From NCBI GenBank assembly GCA_937885075.1, contig CAKZYZ010000420.1, positions 1 to 33,559 of the forward strand: a stretch of DNA of 33,559 nucleotides. Reading direction: 5' to 3'. Positions 11,370-18,627 of the stretch are shown in pieces (the stretch's first letter is position 1; every line of letters starts with the position of its first letter). The DNA comes from an uncultured bacterium. GTDB lineage: Bacteria > Auribacterota > Erginobacteria > Erginobacterales > Erginobacteraceae. Under the pieces are notes generated by a model, which was not told the DNA's origin, did not search any database, and saw only the letters and a program-made list of their open reading frames with translations. A program made the translations under genes and the position numbers.

Positions 11370-11466
11370 TAAGCAGTAAGCAGTGAGCGGTAAGCAGTGG
11401 GCCAAGCTACCGCTCACTGCTTACCGCTAACTGCTTACCGCTAACTGCTTACTGCTAACTGCTTAC
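11370..11466. repeat. GTAAGCAGT minisatellite containing an inversion
   Basis: gtaagcagtaagcagtgagcggtaagcagt followed by accgctcactgcttaccgctaactgcttacc...; about 9-11 nt units in opposite orientations around gggccaagct. Confidence 0.75.
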
Positions 11467-13055
11467 CTCTCTCCTTCTCCAAAAACCTCCGCGGTATAAA
11501 CATAAACCTCCGTCTCCGGGTCCTTCCAGGCATCCGGGGGGAGTCCGGCTTTGTGGGCGGCGCAGGAGGAGAGAAACTCTTCTTTCGACATATGGTGCTC
11601 GGTCGCTACCTGAGGGAGGTAGGTCCCGGTCCGCCAGCCCCGCTTGATATAGATCCCGTGCTTGCCCAGTTCCACTTCTTTCATCGGATCACTGATCCTC
11701 CGCATCGGGGAGAGAACCGAGATCTCAATTTTTATATCGTCCAGCTCGCCCGGCTGAACCGGCCGGAAACGGGTGTCGCGCAGAGATGCCGCCAGGGCCA
11801 TCCCCCGCACCACCTGGTAGAGCGGACGGTTGGCGGTAAACTGGCCGATACAGCCCCGGAGCTGACCTCTCTCATTTAAGGTGACAAAAGCCCCCTGATG
11901 GCCCTGAAGTTCCGGATCATCCACCGGCTCGTCCGGCAGCGGACGCCCGTTGACCGCGTCGGTCAGCGCCTGACGGGCGATCTCCAGCAGCCTCTGCCGG
12001 GAAGCTTCACTCAATCCTTCATCTACTATTTTTTCCTCGTTCATTATCTTCTCCTTAACCGGATTCTTACTTTCACTGGTTCGGATAAAAGCCACCGCCC
12101 CGTACCCCACCACCCGATTCTTATCCCCGTAGGAACTGTCAGCGGAGTTGGAGTGATTCAGGATCTCCACCCGGTCCACCCCCAGAATTTCCGCCGCCTC
12201 CATGGTGGCCAGAACCGCCTTCTCCCCGCAGAGTGTGCAGACCAGGTTGGATACCTTCCCGGGGATATACTTCTCCCGGACCGCGACAACTTTTTCCCGG
12301 TCCATTGACCTGATCGCCTCCAGGGTCTCCCGGTCTATCCGGCGGGAGTCTCCATCCGGGGGATAATGGGTCATATCGGTGCTGCAGACTATTATCGCCT
12401 CCGGGGTTTTCTCCATCGCTTCAGCCAGAACTTTTCCCAGCTTATCGATAACCCGGTCATCCGCCTGACCGATCAGGATTGGAACTATCCTGAACTCTTT
12501 CAGAACTTCCTGAAGGAAAGGCAGCTCAACCTCCAGAGAATGTTCCTGGCTATGGCCCTGAGGAAAATAATTAAAATTCTTATCCTGCTCCCGGATCCAG
12601 TTCGCCAGTTTCTTATCCACCGGGACCACGCCGAGCGGCGTCCGGTAGCCGTCATCTCCGAAGACCGATACCCCGGGAAAATAGGCCTTATGAGAGCACC
12701 CGATCAGGAAGACCGTCTTTACCCCGGAATCTTTAAGGAGCTTGAATGAAAAAGCGGCCGTCGGGCCGGAATAAACATATCCGGCGTGGGGAACAATCAG
12801 AGCAAGCACCTCCCCTCCCGGTTCTTCGACATCCGCCTCGTCGAGAAACCCTCTAATCATCTCCCTCAACCGGGATGGATTAGCGGGATAGAAACCTCCC
12901 GCCACCGCCGGAGGACGGATATTACCACCCGGCCCTTCTTTCAGCGCGGGACCCTCCGATTCGGAACAGGCGGAGATAGGAATGAGCAGGAGGAGAATGA
13001 TTAAGGGACTTATCTTTCGCGAATATTTCATGATGATTACTATACCATAATTCAA
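11463..13055 (-). CDS. MEMO1-like + AMMECR1-like fusion (AmmeMemoRadiSam B and A) with lipoprotein signal
   Basis: N-terminal LLLLIPISACSE lipobox; PPAVAGGFYPANPSRLREMI and IVPHAGYVYSGPTAAFSF (MEMO); GAFVTLNERGQLRGCIGQF and RTGTYLPQVATE (AMMECR1). Confidence 0.9.
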   Translation of the reverse strand: MNYGIVIIMKYSRKISPLIILLLLIPISACSESEGPALKEGPGGNIRPPAVAGGFYPANPSRLREMIRGFLDEADVEEPGGEVLALIVPHAGYVYSGPTAAFSFKLLKDSGVKTVFLIGCSHKAYFPGVSVFGDDGYRTPLGVVPVDKKLANWIREQDKNFNYFPQGHSQEHSLEVELPFLQEVLKEFRIVPILIGQADDRVIDKLGKVLAEAMEKTPEAIIVCSTDMTHYPPDGDSRRIDRETLEAIRSMDREKVVAVREKYIPGKVSNLVCTLCGEKAVLATMEAAEILGVDRVEILNHSNSADSSYGDKNRVVGYGAVAFIRTSESKNPVKEKIMNEEKIVDEGLSEASRQRLLEIARQALTDAVNGRPLPDEPVDDPELQGHQGAFVTLNERGQLRGCIGQFTANRPLYQVVRGMALAASLRDTRFRPVQPGELDDIKIEISVLSPMRRISDPMKEVELGKHGIYIKRGWRTGTYLPQVATEHHMSKEEFLSSCAAHKAGLPPDAWKDPETEVYVYTAEVFGEGER

Positions 13056-14829: not shown

Positions 14830-14985
14830 AACCTCGATCTCGGGAAGCTTAACCAGGCCCTGCTTGATCAAGGGCTTGCAGTAAAAGCCGGTGAAGACCG
14901 CGCTTATCAGCCCGAAGGTTCAGATAAGTCATATTCATTACAGACCCTCTTTCTCCGGATCCCAGTGAAATAAATAAAATTTTTA

Positions 14986-15014
14986 TTGACCGCCTGGGTG
15001 TTTCTATATATAGT
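14986..15014 (+). promoter_or_regulatory. Sigma70-type promoter for the trp leader
   Basis: TTGACC (14986-14991), 17-nt spacer, TATAGT (15009-15014). Confidence 0.65.
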
Positions 15015-15023
15015 AACACAACC

Positions 15024-15083
15024 ATGACGAAAAAGACTGAAAACGCAGTAGTTGTTCTTAGTTGGCGCTGGCCCCGGCAATAG
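15024..15083 (+). CDS. trpL: trp operon leader peptide
   Basis: ATG...TAG encodes MTKKTENAVVVLSWRWPRQ with a W-R-W motif, 38 nt before a terminator hairpin and upstream of trpE. Confidence 0.8.
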   Translation: MTKKTENAVVVLSWRWPRQ

Positions 15084-15155
15084 CCGCGGTCTGCCTCCGT
15101 TTTCATTAAAGGTGTCAATACCGCGGGCAAACCCGAAGAATGCCCGCGGTTTTTT
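15084..15155 (+). terminator. trp attenuator (antiterminator/terminator)
   Basis: CCGCGGT (15084-15090) can pair with ACCGCGG (15120-15126); competing terminator CCGCGGGCA (15121-15129)/TGCCCGCGG (15141-15149) followed by TTTTTT. Confidence 0.8.
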
Positions 15156-15559
15156 CTTTGCCACTAAGACACAAAGGCACAAAGAAGAAGAAAGGGATTA
15201 ATAATAAACAGATCATAACATTAGCGAAGATTCGCGAGCAGCGCAAAATGACCTTCGGTCATCGCGGGGTAAAATTAGCGGTTTATAAAAAAGAAGGTCG
15301 AGGCGAGGTGAACAATTCGCGTAATTTCTCCGCCCCGAAGTTTTAATCGGGGGCGAAATTCGTAGTTCAGAGAAGGCCGAGGGACATGAGGACGAAGGAC
15401 GAAAAGAGGCCGAGGCAGGGGGGCAATCCAGGAGAAAGGCGACAACTTTAGGCACTTTAAACTTAAGGCACTTTAGGCACTCTTATATCCAATCTTGAGT
15501 CATCGACAACTTTTTATTAACATTGATAACCAGTAAATTCTAAATATACGGAGTTCACC

Positions 15560-17035
15560 ATGTATTATCCAGACAAAAAACTATTTTTGGAGAAAGCCCG
15601 CCAGGGCAACCTGATCCCGGTCTATACCGAACTGGTCGCCGACCTGGAGACACCGGTCTCGGCCTTCATGAAACTGGGCGACTCTCCCTATGCCTATCTG
15701 CTCGAGAGCGCGGAATCCGGCGGCGGGATCGGCCGCTACTCATTTATCGGCAACTCTCCTTCCCTGGTATTCCGGAGCCGGGGGAACGAAGCCGAGATCA
15801 TCGAAGACGGTCAAACAAAAAAGGTCCGGGCGGAAAATCCCTTTATGATCCTGAAAGGGCTGCTCAAGAACTACCGCCCGGTAAGAGACGAGAACCTCCC
15901 CCCCTTCTTCGGAGGAGCGGTCGGTTATATCAGCTACGACTGCGCCCGCTACTTCGAGAAACTCCCCGACCAGAAACTCGATGAGTTGAATCTCCCGGAA
16001 CTGAATTTTATGATCACCGATACCATCATCATCTTTGACCGTTTGATGAATAAGATCAAGATCGTCGCTAACGCCCATATCGGGGGAGATCCCGGACGCG
16101 ACTACGATGACGCCATCGGCCGGATCGAGACGGTGCTGGGGCAGTTGATGGGTGTCTCCCCCGGAACCTACTTCCAGCCGCCGTCGATCCGGAAGCAGGC
16201 GGATCTGAAATCAAATTTTTCTCAGAAAGAGTTTGAAAAGGCGGTCCGGGCGGCCCAGGAGTACATCAAGGCCGGGGATATCCTCCAGGTGGTCCTCTCC
16301 CAGCGTTTCCAGGCCGAGACAACCTGCCCCCAGTTTGATATCTACCGGGCGCTGCGGACAATCAATCCATCCCCCTATATGTTCTTCCTCAAGTTTGATG
16401 ATCTCCATCTGATCGGATCGTCGCCTGAGATCATGACCCAGGTCATCGATGACGAGGTAAGGGTCCGGCCGATCGCCGGAACCCGCCCCCGGGGAGGATC
16501 GGAAAAAGAAGATCTCCGGCTGGAGAAAGAACTTTTATCCGACCCTAAGGAATTGGCCGAACACATCATGCTGGTCGATCTGGGCCGGAATGATGTCGGC
16601 CGGGTCGCCGTAACCGGATCGGTCCGGGTCAGTGATATGATGACCATCGAGCGGTATTCTCATGTAATGCATATAGTCTCGGATGTCCGGGGAAAGCTCC
16701 AGCCGGGAGAAGACGCCTATTCGGCCTTTGCCGCCACCTTCCCGGCCGGTACCGTTTCGGGGGCGCCCAAAATCCGGGCGATGGAGATCATCGATGAACT
16801 GGAGCCGATCCGGCGCGGGCCCTACGCCGGGTCGGTGGGATACTTCAGCTTCGATGGGAACCTTGACTCCTGCATCACTATCCGGACTATAATCGTCAAA
16901 GACCGAACCGCGTTCATCCAGGCCGGCGCCGGGATCGTGGCCGATTCCGTCCCGGAGAAAGAACACCAGGAGTGCCTGAATAAAGCCCGGGCGCTCTTCC
17001 GGGCCGTTCAGATGGCCGAAGGAGGATTATCATGA
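15560..17035 (+). CDS. trpE: Anthranilate synthase component I
   Basis: [21 protein letters not shown] (LLES box), [59 protein letters not shown]. Confidence 0.97.
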
Positions 17036-18627
17036 TTCTGATGATAGATAACTACGATTCATTCGTATATAACCTGAAACAATACATGGAAGAACTGGGC
17101 GAAGAAGTGCTGGTCCGGCGAAACGATCAGATTACGATCGAAGAGATAGAATCGCTTGACCCCGCCTCGATCGTCATCTCCCCCGGTCCGGGAAGGCCGG
17201 AAGAGGCCGGATTGAGCGTGGAGATCATCACCCATTTTGCCGGTAAAATCCCCATCCTCGGGGTCTGCCTGGGCCATCAGGCGATCGCCCAAGCCTTCGG
17301 CGGCACCATCAAAAGAGCCGAGCGCCTCATGCACGGCAAAACCTCACCGGTCAGCCATGACGGGAAGACCATCTTCTCCGGCCTCGATAACCCCTTTGAG
17401 GCCACCCGATACCACTCCCTGATAGTCGAGGAGGAATCACTCCCCCCCATTCTTGAGATCAGCGCCCGGACCCCGGAAGGGGACATAATGGGACTCCGCC
17501 ATAAGGAACTGCCGGTGGAGGGAGTGCAGTTCCACCCCGAATCAATTCTCACCAGATCCGGCAAACAGATCCTGCGAAATTTTATTACCGGCCGGACCGA
17601 ACGGATCCCGATAAAAGAGGCCCTGAGCCGGGTGACAGGCGGAGACAATCTCTCCCGGGAGGAAGCCGCCTCGGTAATGGATACGATTATGAACGGTGAC
17701 GCCACCCCGGCCCAGATCGCGGCCTTCATAGTCGCTCTCCGGATGAAAGGAGAGACAGTGGAGGAGATCAGCGGATGCGCGCAGATCATGCGGGAGAAGG
17801 CTAAGATCATTAAGGTTCCGGAAGGCAAGATCGTGGTCGACACCTGCGGTACCGGCGGAGACAAGAGCGACACCTTCAACATCTCGACCGCCGCCGCCCT
17901 AATCGCCGCCGGGGCCAGGATTACCGTCGCCAAGCATGGCAACCGCTCGGTCTCCAGCCGCTGCGGCTCGGCGGATGTCCTCAAGGAACTGGGAGTCAAT
18001 ATAATGGCTCCCCCGGAGGTACTGGAAGAGTGCCTGGCCGAGATCGGGATCGCCTTCCTCTTCGCCCCGCTCCTCCACGGAGCCATGAAGCACGCGATCG
18101 GCCCCCGGAGAGAGATCGGGGTCCGGACCATCTTCAACATCCTCGGCCCCCTCTCCAATCCGGCCGGCGCCGATGTCCAGCTCCTCGGAGTCTACGACAG
18201 AACACTCACCGGGACCATGGCCCGGGTCCTCGGTGACCTGGGTAGCAAGAGAGCCTGGGTAGTCCACGGAGAGGATGGTCTCGACGAGATCACACTCACC
18301 GCCGGGACAATAGTCTCGGAACTGAAAGAGGGAGAGGTTAAAACCTTCCAACTCCAACCGGAGAAATTCGGGCTCGGCATCTGCCGCCCGGAAGAACTGA
18401 AAGGCGGCGGACCGGAAGAGAACGCGAAGATCATCCTGGAGATCCTGAAAGGAGAGAAAGGCCCCAAACGGGACATAGCCCTCCTCAACGCCGGAGCCGT
18501 AATAATGCTGGGCGGCGGCGCCGTCACCCTCCTCGAAGGAATCAAAAAAGCCCAACAGTCGATCGATTCCGGCCAGGCAATGAAAAAGTTAGAAAGCTTG
18601 CGGGAATTAACCGGCAATGATTCGTAA
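17032..18627 (+). CDS. trpGD: Fused anthranilate synthase component II / anthranilate phosphoribosyltransferase
   Basis: [17 protein letters not shown] and [10 protein letters not shown] (GATase) then [27 protein letters not shown] and [21 protein letters not shown] (TrpD); ATGA overlap with trpE. Confidence 0.97.

Follow-up and report, generated by a model that had tools for sequence, protein, structure and literature searches.

A putative trpL-trpE-trpGD control region combining a TrpR-like operator with ribosome-mediated attenuation in an uncultured bacterial family

The window, that is, the whole 33,559-nucleotide stretch of DNA analysed here, carries trpE followed by trpGD, as the initial annotation had stated and as profile matches bear out. 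Upstream of these genes lie a promoter overlapped by a palindrome, a short ORF with two Trp codons and an intrinsic terminator. The features are as follows.

14986-15014, plus strand: predicted sigma-70-type promoter, TTGACC-17-TATAGT, 10 of 12 consensus matches
14998-15019, no strand: palindrome GTGTTTCTATATATAGTAACAC, 20-22 bp, overlapping the -10; proposed TrpR-family operator
15020-15023, plus strand: predicted 5' UTR of 0-4 nt, with a putative start 6-9 nt downstream of the -10
15024-15083, plus strand: putative trpL leader ORF MTKKTENAVVVLSWRWPRQ, 19 codons, TGG at 15063-15065 and 15069-15071
15038-15045, plus strand: long-range arm TGAAAACG, pairing with 15098-15105
15064-15095, plus strand: 1:2 hairpin from the Trp codons to just past the stop codon, -17.8 kcal/mol (15063-15105)
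15084-15090, plus strand: arm 2, CCGCGGT, pairing with arm 3 in stalled-state folds
15098-15105, plus strand: 3' partner of the long-range helix, CGTTTTCA
15120-15126, plus strand: arm 3, the antiterminator partner ACCGCGG, 7 bp with arm 2
15120-15155, plus strand: 3:4 intrinsic terminator, 10-bp stem and T6 tract, with equivalents in G001, G003 and G004
15156-15545, no strand: terminator-to-trpE spacer, at least partly repeat-derived
15560-17035, plus strand: trpE, anthranilate synthase component I (TIGR00564, 581 bits)
17032-18627, plus strand: trpGD, fused anthranilate synthase component II and phosphoribosyltransferase (PRK14607, 743 bits)

For comparison, 145 related genomes were searched for trpE. 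The order was sampled by five genomes, four of which have trpE: three members of the family (the genome of the window, G000, together with G001 and G003) and G004, from another family of the order. The G003 contig is PWXJ01000259.1 (L003, the same sequence). The trpC, trpF, trpB and trpA genes of the window's genome are on a separate contig (C65), apart from trpE-trpGD, unlike in G004, where trpL-E-GD-C-F-B-A are contiguous. Upstream of the separate trpCFBA cluster the motif scan gave no operator match, and no evident WxW leader was seen when the region was read by eye. The spacer between the terminator and trpE is ~400 nt here versus ~40 nt in G003. It holds, at 15161-15184, a dispersed repeat, CCACTAAGACACAAAGGCACAAAG, of which there are 42 copies in this genome (at most 2 mismatches) and zero copies in G001 and G003. 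A direct repeat, TTTAGGCACT, at 15444-15484 also lies between the terminator and trpE, and a different repeat element occupies the equivalent position in G001. Elsewhere in the window, a single ORF at 11463-13055 encodes fused AmmeMemoRadiSam system proteins B and A.

The leader ORF starts at ATG 15024 and ends with the stop codon at 15081-15083. Its two Trp residues, W14 and W16, form a WRW motif. The initial annotation had read this 19-residue ORF as the leader of a trp attenuator, and both the ORF and the attenuator find support in three other genomes, the latter also in computed alternative folds. The predicted leader peptides of G001 (MRKAAENAVEYFAWGWSRP) and G003 (MKTGAENTVRFFAWGWSRH) likewise have 19 codons and keep both TGG codons, and that of G004 is a diverged MKSPAEKAMVNTTWVWRGSTDGVRPPRL with a WVW motif. 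Both Trp codons are therefore kept in all four genomes that have the leader, and the loci homologous to this one in G001, G003 and G004 retain the hairpin as well. In G001 and G003 the promoter, the WxW leader, the position of the stop codon, the terminator and the alternative pairing are all kept. G004 keeps the leader, the terminator and the alternative pairing in diverged form, without the operator and without a TrpR-family gene. No WxW leader was found when ~15 trpE loci, drawn from the best matches, were inspected in other families of the phylum. Candidate unannotated Trp leaders were also noticed before trpE in other bacteria, with the motifs WW (L066), WWVW (L081), WWW (L015, an Armatimonadetes MAG) and WW (L004, a Thermodesulfobacteriaceae MAG).

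The RNA downstream of the ATG can be folded into competing structures. The terminator had been described with a 9-bp stem and a T6 tract; the hairpin and the T6 tract stand, but the stem is 10 bp (ACCGCGGGCA/TGCCCGCGGT, 15120-15129 with 15141-15150), and the stem in G004 is 12 bp. The competing CCGCGGT/ACCGCGG pairing was confirmed as 7 bp (15084-15090 with 15120-15126), within a 1:2, 2:3 and 3:4 architecture, and the fold of 15018-15160 has z = -2.4. When a ribosome was placed at either Trp codon and the RNA was folded up to arm 4, the 2:3 antiterminator formed, at -15.3 kcal/mol here and at about -27 kcal/mol in G001 and G003. A ribosome placed at the stop codon left nothing but the 3:4 terminator, at -19.5 kcal/mol. 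The antiterminator and the intrinsic terminator are thus mutually exclusive in the computed folds. The stop codon (15081-15083) abuts arm 2 here, and the same is true of G001 and G003. The core of the 1:2 hairpin comprises 9 bp without a mismatch in both G001 and G003, and in the window arm 2 of this hairpin has one mismatch. The letters of the 2:3 pairing differ, being CCGCGGT/ACCGCGG here, CCGGGGT/ACCCCGG in G003 and nine pairs in G001, and because the partner in arm 3 is displaced by a few bases this represents a conserved ability to pair and not strict covariation. A long-range helix encloses the Trp codons, with 8, 9 and 10 bp across three genomes and a compensatory double change from U-A to C-G among them; as three sequences do not suffice for a covariation statistic, the helix is taken as supporting evidence only. 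A search of Rfam at the gathering and at a relaxed E-value gave only chance matches at the leader and no trp leader model, which places it outside all Rfam trp leader families. In summary, as far as can be judged from the letters and their folds, the predicted attenuator has each sequence-level feature of ribosome-mediated trp attenuation that was put to the test.

The attenuator does not account for the whole of the region. The initial annotation's reading as an attenuator is supported, but it missed the palindrome over the -10, a TrpR-type repressor and an operator shared with trpR. The palindrome is 95-100% identical between genera, as against ~55% in the flanks just upstream and 63% in the ORF. 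At up to 3 mismatches it is unique in its own genome, occurring only at trpL. A second site was recognised from reading the trpR promoters, and not from the 3-mismatch search: the same ungapped motif lies there just past the -10, and in the window's genome (GTGTTTCTCTTTATAGAATCAG) it is identical to the trpL site at 17 of 22 positions. The pattern YGTTTCTNTNNNTAGWANCA, which was composed after the sites had been seen and is therefore partly fitted in its specificity, matched exactly two sites each in G000, G001 and G003 (the trpL and trpR promoters), a single site in G002 (the trpR promoter) and none in six other genomes (G004 and five others of the phylum); since it derives from the sites, what is informative is that it is missing elsewhere and that its sites fall at matching genes. 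A reversed control pattern gave 0 sites, and a looser two-mismatch scan gave no further site shared between genomes, with a background at the level of the control. A published survey describes the operators of the TrpR family as 20-bp palindromes that vary by lineage, with TGTAcTnGTnnACnAgTACA as that of TrpR (PMC9413887). The present motif, TGTTTCTATATATAGTAACA, also has 20 bp with TGT...ACA ends, as in the published operators of the family (PMC9413887).

A protein matching PF01371 above the cut-off is encoded in the window's genome (E 5.9e-18). Such a protein was found in 4/4 genomes of the family and in 0/40 others of the phylum, and the genomes with the TrpR-family gene are exactly the four that bear the motif. 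In all four, trpR lies directly upstream of trpB2, a tryptophan synthase beta gene named by sequence inspection. The repressor scores 51 bits against the TrpR profile versus 25 bits against YerC/YecD; because 51 bits does not reach the cut-off of 67 of the TrpR equivalog TIGR01321 (NCBIfam), we call the protein TrpR-like and not a certified TrpR. It keeps the residues aligned to T44, R54, R84 and G85 of E. coli TrpR, and the E. coli ligand residues as a whole are kept only in part. In G002 (L087), a further member of the family that is 94% complete, there is no match to trpE or trpA, yet trpR-trpB2 is present with the operator. This suggests regulated salvage of indole or serine rather than full synthesis in that organism.

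Taken together, these data favour, with a probability of about 0.84, a trpL-trpE-trpGD control region with two tryptophan-responsive layers, TrpR-like repression and ribosome-mediated attenuation. In the first layer, the TrpR-family repressor, encoded elsewhere in the trpR-trpB2 operon, would bind the palindrome over the trpL -10. At high tryptophan the bound palindrome would block initiation, and trpR, with this motif at its own promoter, would be autoregulated. In the second layer, transcripts that have been started would encode the 19-codon leader. When charged tRNA-Trp is scarce, the ribosome would stall at W14 or W16 and mask arm 1, arm 2 would pair with arm 3 and RNA polymerase would read through to trpE. 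When tryptophan is ample, the ribosome would reach the stop codon beside arm 2 and cover arm 2, resulting in formation of the 3:4 terminator.

Attenuation might act by itself, on constitutive transcription as in Sinorhizobium trpLE(G), the palindrome being the AT-rich context of the -10. The palindrome does contain the -10, which is itself constrained, and a leaderless trpL without repression is on record (PMC7298713). However, its 5' half sits in the spacer between the -35 and the -10, where there is no need of conservation, and yet it is conserved; in the trpR promoter the motif and the -10 are arranged differently; and TrpR and the motif occur together in four genomes and are both missing from G004 and the tested outgroups. 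We therefore consider this explanation unlikely. It is just as improbable that the palindrome is bound by a TrpR-family protein with a ligand other than tryptophan (HisR-like), or by another regulator, because both detected targets are tryptophan genes, the TrpR profile scores twice as many bits as YerC, and the equivalents of T44, R54, R84 and G85 are kept; the thought arises from the partial keeping of the E. coli ligand residues and from PF01371, which also takes in the HisR/YerC histidine repressors (PMC9413887).

The promoter-like TTGACC (14986-14991) and TATAGT (15009-15014), 17 nt apart, were already pointed out in the initial annotation, and we found the hexamers and the spacing kept in G001 and G003. 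The gap from the -10 to the ATG is 9 nt in 3/3 trpE-bearing family members, each of which has an A seven bases past the -10, and a 5' UTR of 0-4 nt is predicted from these two features. No SD precedes the leader ORF (upstream sequence TATAGTAACACAACCATG), unlike trpE, trpGD and several other genes of the window, so the earlier remark that none is visible holds. It is therefore plausible from the sequence that the leader mRNA has its 5' end 0-4 nt upstream of the ATG and that its translation proceeds in the absence of an SD. The constant distance between the -10 and the ATG in the family could, however, be imposed by the operator and not by leaderless translation. In the operator-less G004, a weaker promoter-like TTGCCG-17-GATTAT was seen by eye ten bases before the ATG. 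If transcription started further upstream, the palindrome, which is able to fold as RNA, would be a hairpin by the start codon, and the leader would have a normal 5' UTR. This is very improbable: the hexamers are kept around the palindrome with their exact 17-nt spacing, the trpR promoter bears a related motif, and the ATG lacks an SD, whereas several genes of the window, including trpE, have one. A chance ORF preceding an ordinary terminator is ruled out by conservation, since frame, length, both TGG codons and the terminator persist at a nucleotide identity of ~63% between genera, and although a short ORF with two Trp codons can arise randomly (26/4000 dinucleotide shuffles of 14830-15559 gave any WW/WxW ORF of 8-40 codons), 0/4000 gave such an ORF followed by an 8-bp terminator, a leader-terminator pair that occurs only once on either strand of the window.

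To our knowledge, the pairing of a repressor with an attenuator at trp genes is found mainly in E. coli and its relatives, with some disputed chlamydial cases. The proposed region resembles the E. coli trp operon in the operator over the -10 region, the short leader with Trp codons, the autoregulation of TrpR and the 1:2, 2:3 and 3:4 alternatives. It differs in its WxW leader (WW in E. coli), which is probably near-leaderless, in an operator sequence other than TGTAcTnGTnnACnAgTACA, in the linkage of trpR to trpB2, and in the trpCFBA genes, which are split off without the operator motif. Leaderless Trp leaders are already known from Sinorhizobium meliloti (PMC7298713) and Streptomyces (PMC8079986). 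The initial annotation had likened the locus to S. meliloti trpLE(G), where the leader is also translated from a transcript starting at or by the ATG and ribosome-mediated attenuation also acts before trpE. A leader of this kind is plausible here, but the comparison fails for repression, because S. meliloti trpLE(G) has no transcription repression (PMC7298713), whereas the promoter here is overlapped by a conserved operator and the locus would be doubly controlled. Streptomyces lividans trpL1-trpE likewise has a leaderless Trp leader ORF before trpE; it belongs to a different phylum and has a WWW motif, and the available portion of PMC8079986 describes no TrpR operator. In the chlamydial trpR-trpBA, trpR also heads a trpB operon and is autoregulated, and repression together with attenuation has been proposed (PMC3937554, PMC7755916). 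The chlamydial attenuators, which are disputed, are located between trpR and trpB, whereas here the attenuator precedes trpE in a separate operon.

In conclusion, the components and the mechanism are already known, and it is the combination, the lineage and the diverged operator that appear to be new. The new combination, as predicted from the sequence, would be that of a repressor site and a trpL that is probably near-leaderless. We give even odds to a wider proposal: that a lineage-specific TrpR-like repressor controls the near-leaderless trpL directly, that its detectable regulon comprises two promoters (trpL-trpE-GD and trpR-trpB2), that the repressor layer of one family sits atop an order-wide leader and terminator, and that dual control like that of E. 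coli has arisen separately in an uncultured phylum. Since G004 has the leader and the terminator and neither the repressor nor the operator, the order in which the layers originated is testable. This locus provides a comparatively well-supported case of dual control in an uncultured lineage, in which operator, repressor gene, autoregulation, leader and terminator are all recognisable, and a context in which a leader ORF, probably leaderless, directly adjoins a proposed repressor site.
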